From Schaalia radingae (GTDB lineage Bacteria > Actinomycetota > Actinomycetes > Actinomycetales > Actinomycetaceae), in contig NZ_LT629792.1 in NCBI RefSeq assembly GCF_900106055.1, positions 1,488,001-1,552,000 on the forward strand: a stretch of 64,000 bases of DNA. The letters are read 5' to 3'. This document shows, in pieces, positions 51,726 to 61,833 of the stretch. The notes under the pieces are model-generated. The model was not told the origin of the DNA, did not search any database, and saw nothing but the letters and a program-made list of their open reading frames with translations. Position numbers and translations under genes: made by a program. Position 1 is the stretch's first letter, and the number at the start of each line of letters is the position of its first letter.

Positions 51726-53405
51726 CTACATGCGCTCGGGGGCGCTCACTCCCAGCAGTGCCAGTCCGTTACGCAGAACCCGCGTCACCGCATCGTTGAG
51801 CCACAGGCGGGCCACGTGGGACTCGGTCACGTCCTCGTCAGCGCGAGGGGTGACGCGGCACTGCCCGTACCATGCGTGGTACGTCGCAGCAAGTTGTTCG
51901 AGGTAACGGGCCACACGATGAGGTTCACGCATTGAAGCGGCCTGCGCAACAAGTGCCGGGAATGTGGCGAGCACTCCGAGCAGTTCACTGTCGGCAGGAT
52001 GGTCCAACGCGGACGGGTCGAATCCGGCGTCTCGGCTGACACCGTGTTCAGCTGCATTACGCGCCACGTTGCAGGTTCTGGCGTGTGCGTACTGCACGTA
52101 GTAGACAGGGTTTTCGTTTGTGTGCGAGGACAGCAGGTCCAGGTCGATGTCCACGTTTGAATCCATCGATACGCGCACCAGTGAGTAGCGCGCGGCGTCA
52201 ACGCCCACAGCATCCACCAGGTCATCAAGGGTGACGATCGTGCCGGCTCGTTTCGACATGCGCACCGGTTGTCCGTCCTTGACCAGGTTGACCATCTGGC
52301 CGATCAGGATCTGCATGTTGACACCTGGCTTGTCACCAAATGCTTCGCACATGGCCATCATGCGGCCGATGTAGCCGTGGTGGTCAGCGCCGAGCAGGTA
52401 GATTGCTGCGTCTGCTCCGCGGGAGCGCTTATCCAGGTAGTAGGCCACGTCGCCTGCGAAGTAGGCAGCCTGGCCGTCCGACTTGATGAGGACGCGGTCT
52501 TTGTCATCACCGTAATCGGTGGTGCGCAGCCAGACGGCGCCATCCTCGTCAAACACTTCGCCGCGTTCGCGCAGGATTTCGATGGCACGTGTGACGGCTC
52601 CGGAGGTGTGCAGGGAGTCTTCGTGGAAGAACACGTCAAATTCGGCGCGGAAGGCGCGCAGGCGATCCTTGATCTGCGCGAACATCAGGTCAACGCCGCG
52701 AGCGCGAAATGCCTCGACAGCCTCTTCATCCGGCAGTGTGGCGGGATCTGGCTCCCCTGCTGCCGCCGCATCGTGACGCACCTGGTCTGCGATGTCCTGA
52801 ATGTACTGGCCGCCATACCCGTCCTCGGGCGCTTCCTGACCGCGAGCGCGCGCCACCAGTGAGCGGGCGAAACGGTCAATCTGGGAGCCGTGATCGTTGA
52901 AATAGTATTCGCGCGTGACCTCTGCGCCGCTCACGCTGATCAAACGGGCCAGCGAGTCGCCCACGGCCGCCCAGCGTGCGCCACCCAGATGAATCGGGCC
53001 GGTCGGGTTGGCCGAGACGTATTCGAGGTTGATATGCGTGCCGGCAAGTGAGTCGTTGTGCCCATATGCTTCGCCTGCTTCCACGATGGTGCGCGCAAGC
53101 TCGCCGGCACTGGCTGCGGCCAGTCGGATGTTAATGAATCCCGGACCTGCGATCTCAACGCTGTCGATCCCCTCGTTCTCACGCAGTGCGTCTGCCACGA
53201 CGGTGGCCAGGGCACGCGGCGCGGTGTGTGCTTTCTTGGCCAGTTGCATCGCAACGTTGGATGCCCAGTCTCCGTGTTCGCGTTGCCGAGGGCGTTCCAC
53301 GGTCACTGTTTCAGGGATGTCAGCCTCATCCAGGGTGATGGTGCCGGCGTGGGCGGCATCGCGCACAATGCGCGTGATCAGTGCAGAAAGTTCTTCAGGC
53401 GTCAT
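51726..53405 (-). CDS. argS: Arginyl-tRNA synthetase
   Basis: Charges tRNA-Arg. The 559-residue class I enzyme has the HIGH-like HLGGAR in [15 protein letters not shown], and the [15 protein letters not shown] loop in place of KMSKS. The N-terminal additional domain (about 1-115) and the C-terminal helical DALR domain are present; the end QCRVTPRAD and [19 protein letters not shown] is typical. ATG 53405 has no ribosome site, and TAATCT lies only six bases upstream on the same strand, so a leaderless transcript is possible. The mobile element begins 95 bases upstream. Confidence 0.96.
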
Positions 53406-53500
53406 GGTTCAAGATTAGACGGCATCGGCACGGTGCTTCCACTCGTTACCGCACTGTGGCGCACCCCGCGTTCAATCTCTCATTGAGCGCCTACCTGTGA

Positions 53501-53523
53501 GCGCCCCGAACAGGACTCGAACC
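53501..53523. repeat. attL, left copy of the 23-bp core repeat
   Basis: Begins GCGCCCCGAACAGGACTCGA and continues ACC, identical to 60998-61020. It copies the last bases of tRNA-Arg(CCG), including the T-stem and the acceptor 3' strand. The remainder of the tRNA is absent here, so this is the remnant end rather than a gene. Confidence 0.92.
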
Positions 53524-53589
53524 ACGTTTTTGCGTAATTCAGTAAACGCGCGTTTTGTGTTGATATAGAGCCGAAAAGTCCCGTCTGCC

Positions 53590-53618
53590 TTGAGTGCGTC
53601 TAGTGCCTGTATTATGCT
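53590..53618 (+). promoter_or_regulatory. Promoter of the integrase gene
   Basis: TTGAGT (53590-53595) and TATGCT (53613-53618) with a 17-base spacer make a good sigma-A-type promoter. The expected start, near 53625, is just before three 11-bp repeats that may bind the integrase, so autoregulation is likely. Confidence 0.6.
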
Positions 53619-53633
53619 TGTTTTTAGGTGTTT

Positions 53634-53666
53634 CGGGGAACGTTCGGGGAACGCTCGGGGAACGAA
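53634..53666 (+). repeat. Left arm-type repeats (three 11-bp units)
   Basis: Three head-to-tail copies beginning CGGGGAACG occur at 53634, 53645 and 53656, differing only in the last two bases. The same unit occurs twice near the right end (60909-60930). Such paired direct repeats flanking tyrosine-integrase cores are typically arm-binding sites. Confidence 0.7.
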
Positions 53667-53689
53667 ACGCACTCAAAGGAGCCACCACC

Positions 53690-54922
53690 ATGCCACGCAA
53701 CACGCACCAACAGCAGCGCCCCTTCGGTAAAATCAAGCGCCTACCGTCCGGGAATTACAGGGCGGACTATCCAGACCCACGCAAGAATGGGAAGCGTATA
53801 GCCGCCCCAGCCACGTTCTCACGCAAGGAAGACGCGCAAGTATGGCTATCGACTGAGAAGCAATCTATTGACCGGGGAACGTGGAAAAGCCCTGAACAGG
53901 TGGAGCGTGAGCGCGCCGAAGCAGAACGCAAAGCCCGGTACGACAATATGACGTTTGGCGACTACTACCCGATGTTCAGGAAGTCCGTCCGATGGGCACC
54001 CTCATCAGCGCGCACACGAGAACCAAGAATCAAGAAATATATTCTGCCCTACTGGGAAGACGTTCCGATCAAGCAGATCGACAAGTACATGATTGACCAG
54101 TGGGTGACCGAGGTTGTCGCACCATTGGGCTACGGGCAGCGCAAGGAAGTATGGCGCTTGTTTAAGCAGATTATGAGAGCGGCGGAAGATTCCGACGTGA
54201 TCGACGTGGTGCCGAAGGTCAGCAGACACTCGAAGGATCTTATACGCCCACAGGTCAACGAGCCGCCCGCTCACTCCAACCGTGCTTTATCGCGTGAGGA
54301 AGTACAGAACGTGATAGCCGAAGCGTCCGACGAGAGCAGACCCGCCTTAGTTCTCATGGTTGTTACCGGCATGAGGCCGGGAGAAGTCAGAGGCTTGAAG
54401 CCCAAGGCGATTGACTTCAAGAACAATCTTGTGCGCATCGAGCACACAGTGAAGATGGAAGGCGAGGCGCAGCGAGGCGAGGACAACGCTAAGACGCGCT
54501 CCAGTCTTCGCACCATTCCGATTGACCCGCGCATCACCGCGATGTTGAAGCAGCACATTAGTAGCCATATGACCGGGGTGGATGCTTACGTGTTCCAGTC
54601 ACCTAAAGAAAAAGGGCGGGCTGTCTCACTGACCAGTTTCCAAAAGACCGTGAAGGCCACACAGAAACGGCATGACTATGACCGGATGGCACCCTACTGT
54701 TTGCGCCACACGTTCGAGACGCAAGCCCAGCTAACCAGTGGTGCCATCATGATGGATGTCGACGCGATGATGGGGCACGAGGTCAGGAATGATCCGAATA
54801 TGCAGCGCCGCTATTCTCACGCAAGCTTGGAGCGCCAGCGCCTTGTGGCCACCTTCATGGCTGATTGGGTATTGAACCCACCAGCGAGCAAAGCGGAAAC
54901 GAGAACCGACATCGTGGGCTAA
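53690..54922 (+). CDS. int: Tyrosine recombinase (integrase) of the element
   Basis: A 410-residue phage-type integrase that should join attP to the tRNA-Arg attB. The N-terminal part (about 15-65) looks like an AP2/arm-binding domain (RLPSGNYRADYPDPRKNGKR), a SAM-like core-binding domain follows (about 85-180), and the catalytic domain has Arg in VVTGMRPGEVRGL, YCLRHTFE (Tyr replaces the first His of HxxR, a common variant), MGHE, and the nucleophile Tyr in RRYSHAS. ATG 53690 follows AAAGGAG; the frame is open to 53594 through the arm repeats. Confidence 0.95.
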   Translation: MPRNTHQQQRPFGKIKRLPSGNYRADYPDPRKNGKRIAAPATFSRKEDAQVWLSTEKQSIDRGTWKSPEQVERERAEAERKARYDNMTFGDYYPMFRKSVRWAPSSARTREPRIKKYILPYWEDVPIKQIDKYMIDQWVTEVVAPLGYGQRKEVWRLFKQIMRAAEDSDVIDVVPKVSRHSKDLIRPQVNEPPAHSNRALSREEVQNVIAEASDESRPALVLMVVTGMRPGEVRGLKPKAIDFKNNLVRIEHTVKMEGEAQRGEDNAKTRSSLRTIPIDPRITAMLKQHISSHMTGVDAYVFQSPKEKGRAVSLTSFQKTVKATQKRHDYDRMAPYCLRHTFETQAQLTSGAIMMDVDAMMGHEVRNDPNMQRRYSHASLERQRLVATFMADWVLNPPASKAETRTDIVG

Positions 54923-54948
54923 GCGCTCGCAGACAGGAGAGAAAAAGA

Positions 54949-55497
54949 GTGAGCGGCAAAATAACCTTCTCAGGTTCTGACATGCCTGACTTGTTGCACG
55001 CCATACAGGTTCGGTGCTGTCACAAGACTGTTGACGGGCGAGAGCTGTCTGACAGGGGAACCGTGCGTGTAGCGATAATCTACCGGTACGTGGGGCAGGG
55101 GTGGTCAACGGCAGAACCCGTAGATGACCCATACAATTTATACGGCTTTTCGAAAAAGCCGCCGGAGGTGGTGGACTTTGGCGTAGTCACGTGTCCCGTC
55201 TGTGGAAGCACAATTGAACTTCGCTACACGCAAGTGCAACTTGCTCTTGATTCTTATCTTAGGTGGAAACAGTGGCCGAACCAGATCATGATCCACTACG
55301 TCAAGAAGGCACCCCCAGTAACAGCGCCTGACAAAAGCGACGTAGACCTGTTAAAAGAGCGGTGGGCAGTGGAGAGGAAAGCCCTTGAGGGTAGGAAAGC
55401 CAATGCCAACCCATTCGCTCACCTGTTCGGGGACGAGAAAGCCCTTGAACGTGAGCTAGCGGAATTGGATGGCTTGGAAGACACACCGCCTTTCTAG
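54949..55497 (+). CDS. Hypothetical element protein with one CxxC pair
   Basis: A 182-residue protein that I do not recognise. GTG 54949 is preceded by AGGAGAG; the frame itself stays open back to 54865 within int. The middle has VTCPVCGSTIELRYTQ, one half of a zinc-ribbon-like site, and an earlier VRCCHK that could complete it. The C-terminal third is helical and charged (ERWAVERKALEGRK, EKALERELAELDG). It is 26 bases downstream of int on the same strand, so it may be expressed with it. Confidence 0.65.
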   Translation: MSGKITFSGSDMPDLLHAIQVRCCHKTVDGRELSDRGTVRVAIIYRYVGQGWSTAEPVDDPYNLYGFSKKPPEVVDFGVVTCPVCGSTIELRYTQVQLALDSYLRWKQWPNQIMIHYVKKAPPVTAPDKSDVDLLKERWAVERKALEGRKANANPFAHLFGDEKALERELAELDGLEDTPPF

Positions 55498-55542
55498 ACA
55501 CGCGTTGTGCTCCAATGCGAACAGATGTGCTATTCTGCTGTC

Positions 55543-55806
55543 TAACGGAGTTTGGATAACTCGCGTGATGGTGGTTCTCCCACCCTAGATGTGAGCAATA
55601 TAGTTCAGCACTAGGCGACAGTCTCGATGCCAAGGCAGACCAGATGGGTCGATAAGTCGGTGACTTATTAGGGACTTGGGTCAGGCGACAGGTCGGTGAC
55701 CTGTTAGAGGCGCATAGTGGATTGTGACAGGTCGGTGACCTGAAGGTGTTGGCACGCTAGTTGACCCTGACAAAAGTAGGGGTTCACTTGGCGTGCCGTT
55801 TTTTAT
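55543..55806 (+). ncRNA. Candidate structured non-coding RNA or leader with three GGT-loop hairpins
   Basis: An extended -10 (TGC TATTCT, 55528-55536) predicts a transcript starting near 55543, and a terminator ends it at about 55806. No gene fits inside. Three hairpins with the loop GGT recur at 55652-55668 (ATAAGTC stem), 55688-55704 (ACAGGTC) and 55728-55742 (CAGGTC), centre spacing 36 and 39 bases; the first and second differ in sequence at paired positions. A further GGTGG/CCACC hairpin lies near 55574. It could be an independent small RNA or the attenuated leader of the xis-rep operon. The palindromes could also be protein-binding DNA sites. Confidence 0.5.
55751..55806 (+). terminator. 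Rho-independent terminator or attenuator ahead of the xis-like genes
   Basis: GGCACGC (55751-55757) pairs with GCGTGCC (55791-55797), an inner TGACCCT/AGGGGTTCA stem fills the loop, and the run GTTTTTTAT follows. It lies 39 bases before the first HTH gene and would end, or attenuate, the upstream transcript. Confidence 0.8.
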
Positions 55807-55844
55807 GCCATGAACCCCAGTGAATGATCATGGAGCGAAAGATC

Positions 55845-56066
55845 ATGGCTGAAAACTTAAGGGACAACGCGCACCCAGCTAGTCCCGAACTTCTCACGAT
55901 TCAACAGGCAGCGGAACTTCTCAACGTGTCAGTGGGCACCGTCCGCAAATGGATTACCAGCGGTGAGCTGAACGCCTACCGCTATGGGGCACATGGTCGT
56001 ATCGTGCGCATCACCCGCGATGATATCCACCAGTTCGCCACCCCCATCATTGGAGGTGCCAAGTGA
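55845..56066 (+). CDS. Helix-turn-helix (excisionase/MerR-type) DNA-binding protein
   Basis: A 73-residue protein with the winged-helix pattern LLTIQQAAELLNVSVGTVRKWITSGELNAYR followed by RIVRITRDDIHQF (here split for length), as in excisionase-family and HTH_17 proteins. GGAGCG lies nine bases before ATG 55845; the longer frame begins 55824. It overlaps the next gene by four bases. As the first gene after the attenuator it probably serves as Xis or as the element's regulator. Confidence 0.82.
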   Translation: MAENLRDNAHPASPELLTIQQAAELLNVSVGTVRKWITSGELNAYRYGAHGRIVRITRDDIHQFATPIIGGAK

Positions 56067-56323
56067 GCGCACCAATGAACAACCCGGTAACCCGGCAAGC
56101 GTGTAGAGACGAGCACAGGCAATACCGCGCTTACATGAAGGTTAGCGACTTGACGGCCTTCACCGGCATTGCGCCCAACACGATCTACACGTGGATCAAG
56201 CAAGGGCGGATCAAAACCGTTGAGTTCGGCTCGCGTATCTTGATCCCAGCAGACGAGATGGAGCGCCTATTAACCGAAGGCGTGCCTACACCCAACCCGT
56301 ACAGGGACGGTGACGCGGCATGA
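56063..56323 (+). CDS. Second small helix-turn-helix protein
   Basis: An 86-residue protein with the same fold as its neighbour: YMKVSDLTAFTGIAPNTIYTW, then IKQGRIKTVEFGSRILIPADEM. The two HTH genes are only loosely alike in sequence, so a recent duplication is not apparent. GTG 56063 overlaps the previous stop (GTGA). One of the pair may be the excisionase and the other an operator-binding regulator; the sequence does not say which. Confidence 0.8.
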   Translation: MSAPMNNPVTRQACRDEHRQYRAYMKVSDLTAFTGIAPNTIYTWIKQGRIKTVEFGSRILIPADEMERLLTEGVPTPNPYRDGDAA

Positions 56324-56739
56324 ACGAGCACAAAAGAAAGTGCCCCAGTGGGGAAACTGGGGCAAAAGATAAGAGCACGCAACCCTTGGGTTCTAGTGTA
56401 GCAACCCCCGGGTTCGACTGGAGACGCTTCACCCCGCGTGAGCAGGAAATCTACGTGCAAGGAATGACCGACGGTATCTCAATCGGTCACCACAAAGGCT
56501 ATGTAGACGGCTACAAGCGCGCCGTAGAAGACCACAAACACCACTGGATCCAAGAGTGGTTCGAACGCGGTTGGAAGGCGTGCGAAGACTACTTCACGGC
56601 AATCATGGCACTATGCCTACCCTATCTAGAAGACGCGATCCGCTACCCCGATTACGCCACCTTGTGCGACATGCGGGGCGACCACGCGCGGGCAGAGCGC
56701 CAACGCCGAACCCTCAAAGAACGCGGGGTGGACAAGTGA
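56320..56739 (+). CDS. Hypothetical element protein
   Basis: A 139-residue protein of unknown function. Its N-terminus is polar and its middle has aromatic, histidine-rich helices (HHKGYVDGYKRAVEDHKHHW, then EWFERGWKACEDYF). It starts in an ATGA overlap with the HTH gene and ends in a GTGA overlap with the DUF3631 gene, so four genes form one tightly coupled unit. Confidence 0.7.
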   Translation: MNEHKRKCPSGETGAKDKSTQPLGSSVATPGFDWRRFTPREQEIYVQGMTDGISIGHHKGYVDGYKRAVEDHKHHWIQEWFERGWKACEDYFTAIMALCLPYLEDAIRYPDYATLCDMRGDHARAERQRRTLKERGVDK

Positions 56740-58031
56740 GCGAAAAAGAAGAAGGCAGCGAACTATTCGATGCCGTCTACAAATTCCTAGGCCGCTTCGT
56801 CGCCTACCCCACCAGTGAATCACGCGTTGCGCACGTCCTATGGATAGCGCACACATGGTTCATGGACGAGTGGGAAGCAACCCCCCGGCTCGCTTTCCTC
56901 TCTCCCGAACCTGAGTCAGGCAAGACACGAGCACTGGAAGTGACAGCACCACTCGTGTGCGACGGACTATCATTTTCCAACGTCTCACCCGCCTACCTGT
57001 TCAGGCGCGTCACCAAGGAAGACACGCCCCCAACCGTCCTGTTCGACGAGATAGACGCAATCTTCGGCCCCAAAGCAAACGGCAACGAAGACCTACGCTC
57101 ATTCCTCAACGCTGGACACCGTAAAGGCGCACGCATCGGGAGATGCCTCGACCACGGGGCGGGCATCGAAGAATTCGACACGTACTGTGCCGTAGCGCTC
57201 GCGGGCTTGGGGTACCTACCTGACACGATTGCCACGCGTTCTGTCATTGTCAGGATGCGGAAGCGTAAGAGTTCGGAACAGGTGGAGCAGTGGAGGATCC
57301 GCACGTGCGAACCCAAAGCCGTCGCACTGCATGATTGGTTCGAGCAGTGGGCAAGCCAACAACGGGATAACGTGGGCATCCCCATGTTGCCTAACCAGAT
57401 CCGAGACCGTAACGCTGACGTGTGGGAACCGCTCATCGCCGTGGCTGATCTTGCTGGGGGCGCGTGGCCGCAAGCCGCGCGTACCGCGGCAATCACCATG
57501 ACAAGCACCGAAGCCACTCCCGCAACGCTAGGTGCCCAGCTACTCGTCGACATTCACACCATCTTCGAAAGCAAGGGGCGGCAGTGGGTAAACAGTGGCG
57601 AGTTAGTTAACGAGCTGAACATGATGGAAGAATCACCGTGGGGCGACCTCAAAGGCCGCCCGATGGACACGCGTCGCCTTGCCCGTATGCTCAAGGGCTA
57701 CGGCATCACCCCACAGAAGAAGCGGTTAGGCGAGGCAACATCGCGTGGCTATCCGCGTGACGCGTTCACTGACGCGTGGGAACGGTACCTACCCGCCCGC
57801 AGTCTCCAAGAAGCGGAACAAGCGGAACACCGGAACATTGGCGTCATACCAACGAAAAATGACGCCACACCCAAAACACCTATCCGGAACATCCGGAACA
57901 CAAGTGGAACAAAACAGCCGCAGAATATCAACGATGTTCCGGATGTTCCGCTTGTTCCGGTTAAATCAGGGTACACGGGCGACGGCAAGCAAGGATCCCT
58001 GTTTGACAGTGATGTGGAGGGGTGCGCCTAA
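56736..58031 (+). CDS. DUF3631 P-loop NTPase, probable replication protein
   Basis: A 431-residue protein. The Walker A-like SPEPESGKTRALE and Walker B VLFDEIDAIFG identify an NTPase of the DUF3631 kind, which in actinobacterial phages and plasmids is the helicase-like part of replication primases. No primase/polymerase domain is attached. The N-terminal helical part spans about 1-45, the NTPase about 45-180 and a winged-helix-like C-terminal region about 255-345. A polar tail with PIRNIRNTSGTKQPQNIND ends the chain. GTG 56736 overlaps the upstream stop. A role in replicating or mobilising the element is inferred from family and context. Confidence 0.85.
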   Translation: MSEKEEGSELFDAVYKFLGRFVAYPTSESRVAHVLWIAHTWFMDEWEATPRLAFLSPEPESGKTRALEVTAPLVCDGLSFSNVSPAYLFRRVTKEDTPPTVLFDEIDAIFGPKANGNEDLRSFLNAGHRKGARIGRCLDHGAGIEEFDTYCAVALAGLGYLPDTIATRSVIVRMRKRKSSEQVEQWRIRTCEPKAVALHDWFEQWASQQRDNVGIPMLPNQIRDRNADVWEPLIAVADLAGGAWPQAARTAAITMTSTEATPATLGAQLLVDIHTIFESKGRQWVNSGELVNELNMMEESPWGDLKGRPMDTRRLARMLKGYGITPQKKRLGEATSRGYPRDAFTDAWERYLPARSLQEAEQAEHRNIGVIPTKNDATPKTPIRNIRNTSGTKQPQNINDVPDVPLVPVKSGYTGDGKQGSLFDSDVEGCA

Positions 58032-58235
58032 CCAGTCAACGCACCAGTCCAACATTGCGGCGTGTGGCTCTCATGGCAATCGACTGTGGGAGCCACGCGC
58101 GTCACGCCCGCGAGCGCACCGCGTCCCCGCATCAACGCGGCATGGGTGAGCAGCAATCAAGAAAACTGAGAACCGTTCTCACACAAGCCGCGCGGGCAAA
58201 ACCATACCCCCAGCGCGACAACGCTAGGGGTAAGG

Positions 58236-58287
58236 CACCGGCAAAAGCCGGTGTAAGTGTCCATTGAAAGGAAAAATAAATGGACAC
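58236..58287. terminator. Pair of hairpins between the convergent halves of the element
   Basis: CACCGGC-AAAA-GCCGGTG (58236-58253) is a perfect 7-bp hairpin, and GTGTCCATT with AATGGACAC (58257-58265, 58279-58287) a perfect 9-bp one with an A-rich loop. They lie between the rightward DUF3631 gene and the leftward sigma-like gene. The rest of the 320-base gap (58032-58351) has an open frame of about 80 codons starting GTG 58022, without convincing coding signs. Confidence 0.65.
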
Positions 58288-58351
58288 CTTTCCTGATGTG
58301 TTCCTAGCTCTGCTAGGTACGTATAGTATATGGCGCGCGTGACAGGCACTG

Positions 58352-58708
58352 TCAATACTCACCCGCGTCACCGTTCAGGAAGTCAAGCATGAGCGCGTCA
58401 GCGCGCGTTAGCGACTGCCACACAGCGCCCTGAGTGACACCCTCACGGCGCGCCACTTCCACCTGTGGCAAGCCCATAACCACGCTGAGATATACGCGGC
58501 GGCGCAACTGTGCTGGAAGCGCGTCAAACGCGCGCCTACCGTCAGCCACACACGCCCACAACGTTGACTGCCTGTAAGGGTCGAACTGGGCGCGCGGCAT
58601 CCCCACTTCACGATACGTGCCGTCAATACTCCACCCCCACGCGTGAGCATCACTAAACGACGCGCGCACCAGCTCACGCACCACAGGCGCACTGTACTCA
58701 CCGCTCAT
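58352..58708 (-). CDS. Sigma-70 region 4-like helix-turn-helix protein
   Basis: A 118-residue protein whose C-terminal half, ALPAQLRRRVYLSVVMGLPQ then VEVARREGVTQGAVWQSLTRA, matches the region 4 HTH of sigma factors; no region 2 is present. Small proteins of this kind act as late-gene or packaging regulators in phages and satellites (RinA- or ArpU-like). It begins two bases after the stop of the upstream leftward gene. Confidence 0.75.
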   Translation of the reverse strand: MSGEYSAPVVRELVRASFSDAHAWGWSIDGTYREVGMPRAQFDPYRQSTLWACVADGRRAFDALPAQLRRRVYLSVVMGLPQVEVARREGVTQGAVWQSLTRADALMLDFLNGDAGEY

Positions 58709-58710
58709 GC

Positions 58711-59049
58711 TTACGCGTCCAACTGTTCAGGTTGAAAGCCCGTCACCAGCAAGTTACATTCCTCGTGTTTGTGGTGCTTGTAGTCCTTGAACACTTCGGT
58801 TAAGCGTCCACGTACTCGCAGGATCAGCCCGCCTACTCCCCCGCGGTTCCACGCGGTTACCAGTTGTTGAGGGTGTTCATGTGCCCATATCCACGCGCAG
58901 GCCACACATTCGTCGTACGACAAGCGCGCTTTATAGGCAAACAGGGTGACTGCTCTACTGAAAGCCGCCCATACTTCATTGTCAGGGTCGCCCGCTTCAA
59001 GGATGCTTACTACTTGATCAGTAGTTACACGATTAACCACAACCCCCAT
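58711..59049 (-). CDS. Hypothetical element protein
   Basis: A 112-residue unrecognised protein. The N-terminus (NRVTTDQVVSILEAGDPDNE) and a middle AYKARLSYDECVACAWIW contain two close Cys residues. The end is histidine- and lysine-rich (DYKHHKHEECNLL). It is the first gene of the leftward pair and lies beside the repeat-rich right end, so its promoter should be near 59050-59170, where a 22-bp palindrome occurs. Confidence 0.65.
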   Translation of the reverse strand: MGVVVNRVTTDQVVSILEAGDPDNEVWAAFSRAVTLFAYKARLSYDECVACAWIWAHEHPQQLVTAWNRGGVGGLILRVRGRLTEVFKDYKHHKHEECNLLVTGFQPEQLDA

Positions 59050-59152
59050 GCTACATTACGCGGGCGCGTTGAGCGGGCAGCACGCTACGGCAACCGCCCT
59101 CGTGCTGGAAGCAGACGGCAGGAGAAAGAACGGACGCTGGGCATACGGCATA

Positions 59153-59174
59153 AACAATCAGAATTCTGATTGTT
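59153..59174. repeat. 22-bp perfect palindrome, repeated at 59905-59926
   Basis: Half-site AACAATCAGAA mirrored around an EcoRI-like GAATTC centre. A second copy at 59905-59926 differs at one central base (GGATTC centre). Both are preceded by ATA AAC-type sequence. The first copy sits upstream of the leftward gene pair and could be its operator, perhaps for one of the HTH proteins. Confidence 0.65.
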
Positions 59175-59301
59175 CTAGGGGATTTGAAGTTTCGCTCGCC
59201 CAGGCGGGCGTTGTTCTTGACTTCAAGCCTGACCTCGCAGCCCGCGTGATAGACGGCAGTCTTGCCCTCGACAATGTTTAGCGCACCACTACCAGCCTGA
59301 C

Positions 59302-59420
59302 GAAACCTAGACGAAACCCAGCAGGTTACGGAATCAAAACCTAGCCAAAACCTAGAAGTAACCCAGCCGGTTACGAAAACGGAACCTAAACCCAACCTAG
59401 AACTAACCCACGGGGTTAAC
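59302..59420. repeat. 45-bp imperfect tandem repeat (about 2.6 copies)
   Basis: Units begin at 59302, 59347 and 59392, each with AACCTAG, followed by a TAACCC...GGTTA inverted repeat (59314-59330, 59359-59375, 59404-59420) at exactly 45-base intervals. Regular repeats with internal dyads beside a replication-type NTPase suggest iterons of an origin. Confidence 0.7.
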
Positions 59421-59800
59421 CACACCACGCGAAACACCCCGTGACCAGAGGGCATCTGGAAACCGTGTAAGTCCCATTAGCAATTGTGCGTCTGGAATAC
59501 GCACATTTTCCACACGCAGCCCCGAACCCACAACAAGCCCGAACACCCAACGAAACCGGCAACGCTGAACCCACCCACGCGCGCACCCTGAAAGCGCGTG
59601 AGAACCACTCACAGGCACGCCAACGAGATCGTGGAACCCCCCACATCGTGCAGCCACAACACGCGCGCCTTGAACTGCCACCCACAATTTTCCACAGCCC
59701 TACACCCACAGGCACAACAATCCCCCCCACCAATCGCACCCCACCCCCAAGGTGTCACGCACCACGCACAGTTAATAACAAATTCGTTAATATCGAATCT

Positions 59801-60709
59801 TGAGGATCCTCAGAATGTTGCAAATTAGGGGAATCCCCCGAATGTTGCACAGGACTAGAAGACCGACCCGCGAGCGCGCTCACCGCGATATTTATAGATC
59901 TATAAACAATCAGGATTCTGATTGTTCCCCACCGAACACGGGAAGTGGCAAGCCTGTTGTATTCGCTATTTTGGGAACCCAAAAAATCGTGCCCCAAGAG
60001 CAGAAGGGGCGACGGGGTGATGAAGCGCCACCCCATGCGTAAAGGCCGCTAGATAAATGAGAATCCTCATTTAAAGCTCCCATGCGTGGGACAGGCAAGC
60101 CAATACCGTAGCTAGTACCGACGCTTCCCAGGGCGACCAGCAAAAGAGATCGACGTGAGGCAAACCGAGAAAAAAGGGAAATCCCTTTTACCGTCTCCAC
60201 CATGCGTGTCTAGTAAAAGACTTTCGTCTTTTAAATCGGCATGACCACCCGCCCGCGTCAGGCAACATTCGACAGATCAGTCGAATCTGAAACCCCATCG
60301 CCTACACCACAGGCAACACATAGCCACCACCTACCGGCATGTAATCAGGAAACCCTGAATAGCGCATGTGGAGCTTAGCTAGTGGGGCGAACGAAGATAT
60401 TGGCAGATCCGCCAATAGCAAGCGAATTTAAACTATTTAAATTTCCCGATTCAGGGAAATCTGCCCACGCCTTACAGGTAAGCGCACCGCGCTGGAGCAT
60501 CGCTATTACCACTTGTGGTAATAACGGATCCGTTAAAAGCAAGCAAGGAGAGGTGGGAAGCCCGCTATTGGCAAATGTGCCAATAACGCGAGCAGAACAG
60601 AACTAGAGGCGCTTCACGAGTGAGCGCACAACATCGCTATTACCGGATCCGGTAAAAACCGGGACGCGGGAGAACCGACACGGGACAGTTAGTAACACAA
60701 GTGTTACTA
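59801..60709. repeat. Array of short, mostly perfect inverted repeats with differing stems
   Basis: Non-coding stretch packed with hairpins or palindromes: 59801-59812, 59828-59838, 59891-59906, 59905-59926 (one central mismatch), 59969-59984, 60054-60073, 60172-60189, 60215-60232, 60267-60286, 60345-60358, 60398-60417, 60425-60443, 60441-60460, 60504-60523, 60522-60535, 60566-60585, 60640-60655 and 60690-60709. Stems of about 4-9 bp differ almost everywhere; only TATTGGC recurs, at 60398 and 60566. Many centres contain GATC or AATCC. Four begin CGCTATT (59965, 60502, 60564, 60636). Together with 59421-59800 this region holds no supported gene. Function unknown. Confidence 0.8.
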
Positions 60710-60908
60710 CTAGAAGTCTCACACACCCCGCCTATTAATCACTCTCACAGGTCTTAAACCCCATTCACCCCTGAGTTGCCACACTCCACGCTTGCTAAGA
60801 CAGAGCGGTAGGGAGAAAGCGCGGCGCGGGGGTCAGGTGCCGGGGCGGTTCCGACACGACGAAATAGAGGCCGCGAGCGCCCGAGCGCTATTTAGTACGA
60901 GCTTTTTT

Positions 60909-60930
60909 CGGGGAACGTTCAGGGAACGAG
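60909..60930 (+). repeat. Right arm-type repeats (two 11-bp units)
   Basis: CGGGGAACGTT (60909-60919) and CAGGGAACGAG (60920-60930) repeat the left-end units in the same orientation. Nearby, GAATTACGCAAAA (60943-60955) is the exact inverse of TTTTGCGTAATTC at the left end (53528-53540), and GTTGATATA occurs in both ends (53559, 60965). Confidence 0.65.
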
Positions 60931-60997
60931 AGAGGGTAGCCGGAATTACGCAAAACCACTTTTCGTTGATATAACGCCACTTTGCTAAACCAGTCCC

Positions 60998-61020
60998 GCG
61001 CCCCGAACAGGACTCGAACC
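60998..61020. repeat. attR, right copy of the 23-bp core repeat
   Basis: Identical to 53501-53523 and embedded in the intact tRNA-Arg gene, whose 3' end it forms. The copy here therefore belongs to the functional tRNA. Confidence 0.92.
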
Positions 61021-61071
61021 TGCGACCTTCTGCTCCGGAGGCAGACGCTCTATCCGCTGAGCTATCGGGGC
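60999..61071 (-). tRNA. tRNA-Arg, anticodon CCG
   Basis: A 73-base cloverleaf on the minus strand: acceptor GCCCCGA with TCGGGGC plus discriminator G, D-arm around AGCTCAGCGGATAGAGC, anticodon stem GTCTGC/GCAGAAG-side with loop CTCCGGA, and T-arm with GGTTCGAGTCC. CCA is not encoded. It reads CGG codons. The element lies downstream of its 3' end, separating it from argS. Confidence 0.96.
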
Positions 61072-61155
61072 CAACGCCTGTCGAGTTTAGCACTTCCGCC
61101 TGCAGTGGCGCTCCCCTGCTCACGCGCACAGCCAGTGGAAAGGATCACCCGGCAT

Positions 61156-61833
61156 TTAGTCGCGCGTAGGCCGCCCTCGTGCATCGTTGAAATTGTCGAG
61201 GGTGTCCGCGTCGCTGATGATCTCTCGTTCGTGACGACCTGATCGTGGGACGCGCTGTAGGGAGCGGCGCACCGTCACGATCGCCCACGCCATGAATGCG
61301 ATGACAATGACGACCAGGATCAGAGCAATGATGGGGGCGACCACGGCGAGCAGTGAGATCCCCAGGGACGCCGTGTCCTCGCCTGCGGAGATGAACGGAG
61401 TGGCCAGGCCTGCGGTTGTCACATTGGCGATTGGACGCGCGGATGCTTTCGTCAGGTGGACGACCAGCGCGATCACCAGTCCGATGACGATGGGCAGCCA
61501 GTTGGACGTGTCGGCAAAAAACGAGTCCGGGTCGTTGGTGGCAACCGTTTGTGCACCCACACCAGAGGCGAAGACAATGCCACCGGATGCCGGCCGAATG
61601 AATGTGTGCACGATGTCGTTGACCGAATCGAGGGCCGGGATCTTGTCAGCGACGACTTCGACGACCAGAAGGACTGCGAGGATTCCCAGCGACCACCATG
61701 ATGACAGCCAGTTCCACGCGGGTGGCAGATTCACCCACGACGTGAATTTGTCCAGTGCGCCCATGATGAGCAAGGGAATGTACGCGTTCAGGCCGGCAGC
61801 ACTTGACAGGCCGGTGGCAGTCAGAATCTCCAT
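61156..61833 (-). CDS. DUF4126 membrane protein
   Basis: A 225-residue integral membrane protein with several hydrophobic segments (about 5-30, 45-62, 80-100, 112-130, 152-190). The N-terminal GLSSAAGLNAYIPLLIMG, then FASGVGAQTV and the Ala/Gly-rich later helices are those of DUF4126. The C-terminus is basic and polar. No function is known. It is the first gene beyond the tRNA. Confidence 0.85.
   Translation of the reverse strand: MEILTATGLSSAAGLNAYIPLLIMGALDKFTSWVNLPPAWNWLSSWWSLGILAVLLVVEVVADKIPALDSVNDIVHTFIRPASGGIVFASGVGAQTVATNDPDSFFADTSNWLPIVIGLVIALVVHLTKASARPIANVTTAGLATPFISAGEDTASLGISLLAVVAPIIALILVVIVIAFMAWAIVTVRRSLQRVPRSGRHEREIISDADTLDNFNDARGRPTRD

Follow-up and report, generated by a model that had tools for sequence, protein, structure and literature searches.

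Palindromic DNA sites that are read by ParB-fold proteins are known from the ParB/parS and Noc/NBS systems, and the 16-bp parS sites that one protein reads are almost identical to each other. The origin of phage lambda lies inside its own O gene, and the attC sites of integrons share conserved R and L boxes. ParB proteins load on their site and then slide, with many clamps around one site (available sections of PMC12704722). ORF13 of TP901-1 and Rep2009 of Tuc2009 are replisome organizers that bind direct repeats within the very genes that encode them, and phage-encoded resistance (PER) resulted when origins and replisome organizers from two lactococcal phages were cloned in trans (available sections of PMC8965321). 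PLE and ICP1 contest RepA-type iteron specificity, PLE origins consisting of three iterons with one RepA specificity (available sections of PMC8263062).

We analysed a 64,000-nt stretch of the Schaalia radingae genome (the window) in which 20-bp palindromic sites that differ in their arms lie next to one another. Since parS clusters repeat one palindrome, this array is not a parS cluster. It would be like the replisome organizer systems in that a predicted phage DNA-binding protein has sites in its own gene and foreign copies would hurt the phage; however, those sites are direct repeats, and the available sections of PMC8965321 mention no set of sites that differ in specificity. CRISPR arrays offer a likeness in that the array here may also record contact with many phages, but there is no constant repeat, the palindrome itself being the variable part, and no cas gene was detected among eight scanned element proteins. 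A repeat search of 59500–61000 yielded just families of two to three partial copies, which set aside CRISPR and ordinary repeats. Integron arrays require shared boxes, whereas no arm motif is common to all sites here. A structured RNA element was likewise rejected, as both strands fold and Rfam (E ≤ 1, 53000–61500) returned only the tRNA and an opposite-strand match far below the cut-off of that family. The interpretation in the preliminary description was supported in part, the lack of an Rfam family being one of the points in its favour.

The palindrome array and the element that carries it

The array had been described as about eighteen short inverted repeats, and with mismatches allowed it resolves into 17 even-axis 20-bp sites and one AT-rich odd-axis dyad (Table 1). 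Between 59780 and 60730, dyads with perfect stems of at least 6, 7 and 8 (loops of at most 8, 8 and 4, respectively) numbered 16, 15 and 10. The expected excess over shuffled controls was borne out, with means of 1.51, 0.39 and 0.05 (maxima 5, 3 and 1) in 300 dinucleotide shuffles of the same region, and means of 2.7, 0.86 and 0.14 (maxima 7, 3 and 2) in control 951-bp pieces from the first 53 kb of the window. The GATC and AATC centres and the four CGCTATT openings of the preliminary description are present (59964, 60501, 60563 and 60635, with a fifth CGCTATT at 60886, outside 59801–60709), although its spacing of 30–60 bases proved too narrow, as axes lie 15–117 bp apart.

Counted outward from the axis, pairing holds in 16 of the 17 even-axis sites at distance 10 and in 1/17 at distance 11 (10/17 at distance 12), and the span of the site is therefore 20 bp. 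The centre is RRATYY in eight of the 17; most other centres are close to it (GGAACC, GAAACC, AGATCA), the deviating ones being CTTTCG, ACTTGT and ACAAGT. Arms vary from site to site, with TATTGGC arms in two sites and TATTACC in two others, one of these with one arm altered. Within their own site, 109 of 119 arm positions pair, versus a mean of 48 (maximum 79) when arms were re-dealt among the 17 sites in 20,000 permutations, which supports the earlier proposal that symmetry is under selection and is not a product of repeat expansion. Among the remaining ten positions there is one G–T on the plus strand. Four folds covering both strands gave z-scores of −6.9 to −11.8 (20 shuffles each); these follow from the dyads and do not separate RNA from DNA. 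New relative to the preliminary description are a span fixed at 20 bp, the RRATYY centre found in many sites, the site at 59154–59173 and a sister element lacking the array block of ~855 bp.

Table 1. Features of the integrated element and of the palindromic array (window coordinates; loci and genomes are labelled L and G)
Feature	Position	Strand	Sequence	Evidence or remark
Integrated element, 7.5 kb	53501–61020			att ends by blastn (query tRNA region, subject window)
Tyrosine integrase	53666–54922	+		Pfam PF00589, E 2.6e-17
Two HTH_17 excisionase-like proteins	55824–56323	+		Pfam PF12728; PHROG excisionases among matches
139-aa protein, relatives near DUF3631 genes	56320–56739	+		tblastn to L054, L055, L057, L059
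DUF3631 protein	56736–58031	+		Pfam PF12307, E 3.9e-55
Sigma-70 region-4-like protein	58352–58708	−		Pfam PF08281, E 1.4e-6
112-aa protein	58711–59049	−		92% identical in sister element
Remnant of ParB-like phage gene	59072–59290	+		About residues 86–159, with its own 20-bp site
Site inside ParB-like remnant	59154–59173		ACAATCAGAATTCTGATTGT	Same kind as array sites, outside the range first described
Iteron-like repeats, 45 bp × 2.4	59303–59410	+		TRF
Array site	59797–59816		ATCTTGAGGATCCTCAGAAT	Kept in sister element
Array site	59824–59843		ATTAGGGGAATCCCCCGAAT	Kept in sister element
Array block, ~855 bp	59862–60716		ACTAGAAG	Between copies of this sequence at 59854–59861 and 60709–60716; missing in sister (blastn against L004)
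Array site	59889–59908		TATTTATAGATCTATAAACA	
Array site	59906–59925		ACAATCAGGATTCTGATTGT	19/20 with site of ParB-like remnant
Array site	59967–59986		TATTTTGGGAACCCAAAAAA	18/20 with in-gene site, viral contig L198
Array site	60054–60073		TAAATGAGAATCCTCATTTA	
Array site	60171–60190		AAAAAGGGAAATCCCTTTTA	
Array site	60214–60233		TAAAAGACTTTCGTCTTTTA	
Array site	60267–60286		ATTCGACAGATCAGTCGAAT	Arms 14/14 with in-gene site of L197/L115 (Arcanobacterium urinimassiliense)
Array site	60342–60361		TAATCAGGAAACCCTGAATA	
Array site	60398–60417		TATTGGCAGATCCGCCAATA	18/20 with in-gene site, viral contig L211
Odd-axis dyad, least typical member	60425–60443		AATTTAAACTATTTAAATT	
Array site	60441–60460		ATTTCCCGATTCAGGGAAAT	
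Array site	60504–60523		TATTACCACTTGTGGTAATA	Arms 14/14 with in-gene site of L195
Array site	60519–60538		TAATAACGGATCCGTTAAAA	
Array site	60566–60585		TATTGGCAAATGTGCCAATA	
Array site	60638–60657		TATTACCGGATCCGGTAAAA	19/20 with in-gene site, viral contig L195
Array site	60690–60709		TAGTAACACAAGTGTTACTA	
tRNA-Arg(CCG)	60998–61071	−		ARAGORN

The array belongs to an integrated element bounded by identical 23-bp copies of the 3' end of tRNA-Arg(CCG) (attL 53501–53523, attR 60998–61020). Repeats of the type TTCGGGGAACG/TTCAGGGAACG occur near both att ends (53631–53665 and 60906–60929) and are possible integrase arm sites. The DUF3631 protein is a putative replicative helicase. On the minus strand, the sigma-region-4-like and 112-aa proteins are adjacent (58352–59049), and our guess is that they could form a split sigma factor; neither Pfam nor PHROG gave a match to the 112-aa protein at E ≤ 0.01. 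All four AACCTAG of the window and two DnaA-box-like TTTTCCACA (59506 and 59688) lie within 59304–59696, directly before the array. Shuffles of the window reached four AACCTAG in 14/100 and two TTTTCCACA in 3/100, so the counts alone are not rare; it is the clustering of these repeats and boxes that suggests an origin-like region beside the array.

PICIs are integrase-bearing elements with their own origin, as is PLE in the available sections of its description, and the element here would resemble them given its putative origin. Integrase and att sites are present, as in PICI-like elements, and there is no complete capsid, tail and packaging set among the scanned proteins (eight in Pfam, seven in PHROGs). 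The Pfam scan returned no structural match to capsid, tail or packaging genes, and in PHROGs one HTH protein weakly matched a small-terminase family, its excisionase matches being better. As an AICE-type integrative element with DUF3631 would, the element shares integrase, HTH protein and DUF3631 with the Streptomyces plasmids L071/L072, but no TraB/FtsK or prim-pol was found among its eight scanned proteins in Pfam.

A sister element in the same genome occupies tRNA-Arg(TCT) (L004:9313–9386) and is 98% identical over the first 3.2 kb. An unrelated helicase-like open reading frame (RepA/AAA-like by eye) replaces DUF3631 there, which is a replication-module swap; downstream of it lie GCTAAGCG-type repeats (by eye). 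The counterpart of site 59154–59173 is TATTGGCACAAGTGCCAATA. Dyads had been expected at the same places in related elements, and this holds in part: about four are kept in the sister, and the ~855-bp block between the two ACTAGAAG copies is absent. The array is thus not essential to this family of elements.

The array was seen in one genome. Its DNA had no relatives in phages or plasmids, and none at E ≤ 0.001 in 35 genomes of the genus apart from its own. Host-derived spacers were rejected as a source, since the matches listed in a genus-wide search at E ≤ 10 were short and scattered; the best of those listed outside the own genome (E 0.003 in G021, 0.018 in G010) fall in DNA that looks coding by eye. 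Relatives traced through the sigma-like, 112-aa, 210-aa, DUF3631 and integrase proteins had no array, with the exception of a palindrome cluster in L056; the other 17 of 18 relative regions reached at most five dyads (stem at least 7) per 600 bp, versus 11 here.

Palindromes within ParB-like genes and their matches in the array

The open reading frame 59048–59281, which contains a palindrome, resembled a fragment of a larger protein. A search of 213 genomes of the family returned two full-length ParB-like genes, in G193 and in G112, which we infer to be Arcanobacterium urinimassiliense (Actinomycetaceae). The remnant matches the genes of G112 and G193 at E 3.4e-15 and 6.4e-14, respectively (A2 profile, E 1.5e-21), and each gene carries one perfect 20-bp palindrome in frame (ATTCGACACATGTGTCGAAT in G112, TATTACCGGATCCGGTAATA in G193). 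In L107, weaker dyads (stem 7–8) accompany the palindrome. Other palindromes with stems of at least 9 occur in the 19 kb around these two genes, one in L110 and two in L111. Apart from the remnant, the 35 genus genomes contained no ParB-like gene of this family at E ≤ 1e-10.

Among viral contigs, the ParB-like gene was found at seven loci, five of them close (L195, L196, L197, L198 and L199); L195 carries the same gene as G193, and L197 the same as G112. Palindromes lie at residue 113 in L195, 114 in L197 and 111 in L198 (TATTTTGGAAACCCAAAATA), which are homologous codons, with arms private to each. At the same codons, L196 has a near-perfect palindrome (ACAATGAAGATCTTCATCGT), L199 a weak one, and in Corynebacterium phage phi16 (L202) the site is TAACGGACAATCGTCCGATA, where two positions of the arms or centre are mismatched. 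The six unselected close homologues therefore comprise three clear palindromes, one near-perfect and two weak. No such site was found at homologous codons in the distant L116, L117, L200 and L201. Order- and class-level searches gave only distant additions (L208/L331, which are one gene, L330 and L333); L208 lacks a 20-bp palindrome at homologous codons and has a 25-bp dyad 30 codons after the motif.

The proteins encoded by the site-carrying genes qualify as predicted ParB members: ParB_N (PF02195) scores above cut-off in L195 and L197 and below it in L196, L198 and L202, and the family profile matches solved ParB/Noc/Spo0J chains at E 7e-6 to 0.03 (PDB sequence profiles). Specific binding to the palindromes is predicted from their position and symmetry. 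The predicted structure is poor (mean pLDDT 66), with low confidence at the central HTH region, and Pfam gave no HTH family for these proteins. The ParB-like gene of L195 starts inside a Cro-like gene, itself arranged divergently to the gene of a C1-type repressor, and the replication genes of lambda lie near the matching position.

We compared the in-gene sites with the array under a strict null of random palindromes having the array's own column make-up and centres. The best array matches were 19/20 for L195 (p 0.005), 18/20 for L198 (p 0.03) and 17/20 for L197 (p 0.07), and the non-matching sites scored 14/20 for L196 (p 0.64) and 13/20 for L199 and L202 (p 0.81). The joint p was 0.017 over all six unselected close homologues, including the three misses. 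On arms only, the scores out of 14 were 14 for L195, 13 for L198, 14 for L197, 11 for L196, 10 for L199 and 9 for L202. We rejected a rule by which every in-gene site of the close ParB-like genes would have its match in the array, as three of the six unselected sites have none.

Viral contigs were also scanned blindly for TATTGGCN6GCCAATA, an arm pair of which the array has two copies and the sister element one. At least 120 loci were returned, and among those listed a single one, L211, is inside a gene of this ParB-like family, its site (TATTGGCGAATCCGCCAATA) falling at homologous codons by alignment; earlier protein scans had not picked it up. The other 119 loci listed contained no such gene (tblastn with 11 ParB-like and HTH proteins, motif check). 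None of the other listed contigs qualified as a further array, the maximum being four dyads with stem at least 8 within 1 kb of the TATTGGC site.

The arms of all 17 sites were also searched for in the other loci retrieved, all lying outside the element itself; these came to 2.43 Mb, a figure that counts overlaps and takes in distant ParB-like genes. Full matches of 14/14 to any site occurred solely in the ParB-like genes of L195 and L197 (nine overlapping loci), a count that leaves aside matches to the blindly scanned pattern in that pattern's own contigs (at least 120). With one mismatch there were 24 matches: one is the in-gene site of L198 at homologous codons, one lies in a ParB-like frame (L123) but ~95 codons further on, and for 22 no open frame with a ParB motif was seen. 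In distant ParB-like genes the palindromes differ in length, and these genes entered the comparison through the arm scan only. Overall, a viral partner with at least 13/14 arm letters was found for six of the 17 array sites, two of them through L211, itself found by its arms; the other 11 have no partner among the viral sites compared.

Interpretation of the array and competing explanations

Given one 20-bp plan with private arms, in-gene sites at homologous codons and four of these matching the array, we consider it highly probable that the array is a site bank, in which ParB-like proteins from different phages would bind the 17 or so predicted sites. The exact arm matches at nine overlapping loci in ParB-like genes, and the fragment of a ParB-like gene that the element retains together with its site, were counted in favour of this bank. 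We infer that each ParB-like protein recognises the arms of its own gene's site, in which case each array site would be the key for one protein type. The bank of operators suggested in the preliminary description was the closest of its three ideas, with the operators now read as ParB-type sites; a fixed length of 20 bp is not required for a folded RNA or a single-strand region, and neither would explain the palindromes in phage ParB-like genes.

The full explanation, in which the site bank serves a phage satellite that captures ParB-like proteins of helper phages, is in our view somewhat better than even. The ParB-like protein made early by an incoming phage would load on the matching site beside the satellite's origin, and the satellite would borrow phage DNA-handling (replication or segregation) at the phage's expense; many different sites would make many different phages exploitable. 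Early capture beside the origin is proposed because of the gene position in L195 and the resistance conferred by lactococcal replisome organizers. Hijacking as the purpose of the bank is put forward tentatively.

If correct, satellites would hold many keys at once, so that the range of helpers or targets could be read from DNA, and the array would predict site by site which phage proteins bind. It would be a protein-level counterpart of a spacer array, by which one small parasite recognises and exploits (or blocks) many phages. The novelty would lie in the collection of different sites, its parts being of known kinds. No site bank of this kind was found in the open-access literature searched, and the main text of a ParB fold survey (PMC12704722) contains no word beginning with 'palindrom'.

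The same in-gene matches would also be expected of decoys that soak up the ParB-like proteins of infecting phages, protecting the host cell and the element with no other gain to a satellite. As ParB loads many clamps per site (available sections of PMC12704722), one copy per type could suffice, and lactococcal origins and replisome organizers in trans do give phage resistance (available sections of PMC8965321). However, the array adjoins an origin-like region in a mobile element, for which selfish use is as likely, and we regard pure protection as rather unlikely.

An infection sensor, in which a phage ParB-like protein on its site alters transcription and induces excision, with many sites allowing many inducers, is improbable. 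The minus-strand unit of the 112-aa and then the sigma-like protein does start at 59049, at the edge of the region, and one site lies ~0.1 kb upstream of that start (59154–59173, TATTGGCACAAGTGCCAATA in the sister), but the remaining sites are 0.75–1.7 kb away.

The ParB-like gene remnant, and the three to four flanking letters of gene context (TCGC/TCGA) that several sites retain, could also be expected if the palindromes had come with captured pieces of ParB genes by recombination and had no present use. We doubt this strongly, as decay would break the arms, which are symmetric at 109/119 positions, and flanks beyond ~4 bp lack gene homology (by eye). Least likely of all is that the hairpins represent a structured non-coding RNA or a single-strand replication signal, since the strong folding that favours it occurs on both strands, pairing ends at a fixed 20-bp span, 109/119 arm positions are Watson–Crick with only one G–T among the other ten (plus strand), similar palindromes lie within coding genes of viral contigs, and no Rfam family matches.

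In-gene palindromes beyond the close family

The bank of ParB-type sites has a wider form, namely that a mobile element holds a heritable collection of sites, one per phage lineage, and that many ParB-like genes would hold their own protein's palindrome in frame, reader and site travelling together; for this joint reading we put the chances as even. Under the in-gene rule, the gene of an uncharacterised ParB-like protein, from a phage or a plasmid, would itself point to the DNA that this protein targets. In ParB-like genes from many phyla, the 360 nt beginning 90 nt after the DGRNR-type motif contained a palindrome with stem at least 10 in 24 of 80 non-redundant genes, including L211, which had been chosen by its palindrome, versus 38 of 1,235 other windows from the same loci (Fisher p 3e-15); before redundancy was removed, the figure was 27/94. 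Most ParB-like genes thus do not reach a stem of 10.

A second protein type shows a related arrangement. HTH proteins of Propionibacterium phages PFR1/PFR2 and Microbacterium phage vB_MoxS-R1 are encoded with a long in-frame palindrome after the HTH. In the HTH-gene palindromes (L103/L104:3123–3150, L105:3121–3151, L056:11265–11584), the outer CAGGTG...CACCTG is constant and the inner arms are variable and complementary. Five palindromes lie within a single HTH gene of the DUF3631 element L056, the second having the arms of the PFR1/PFR2 in-gene site but not at the homologous place. This element, with the same helicase type, may therefore keep a small bank in another 'currency'.

In many alphaproteobacterial ParB-like genes (within L115–L207 and L211), the palindromes are centred on GCAAATTTGC or GCCAATTGGC and vary in their outer arms. 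A perfect 30-bp palindrome (L206:2393–2422) lies inside a gene on a linear Streptomyces plasmid; this gene has DUF5131 and matches ParB_N weakly.
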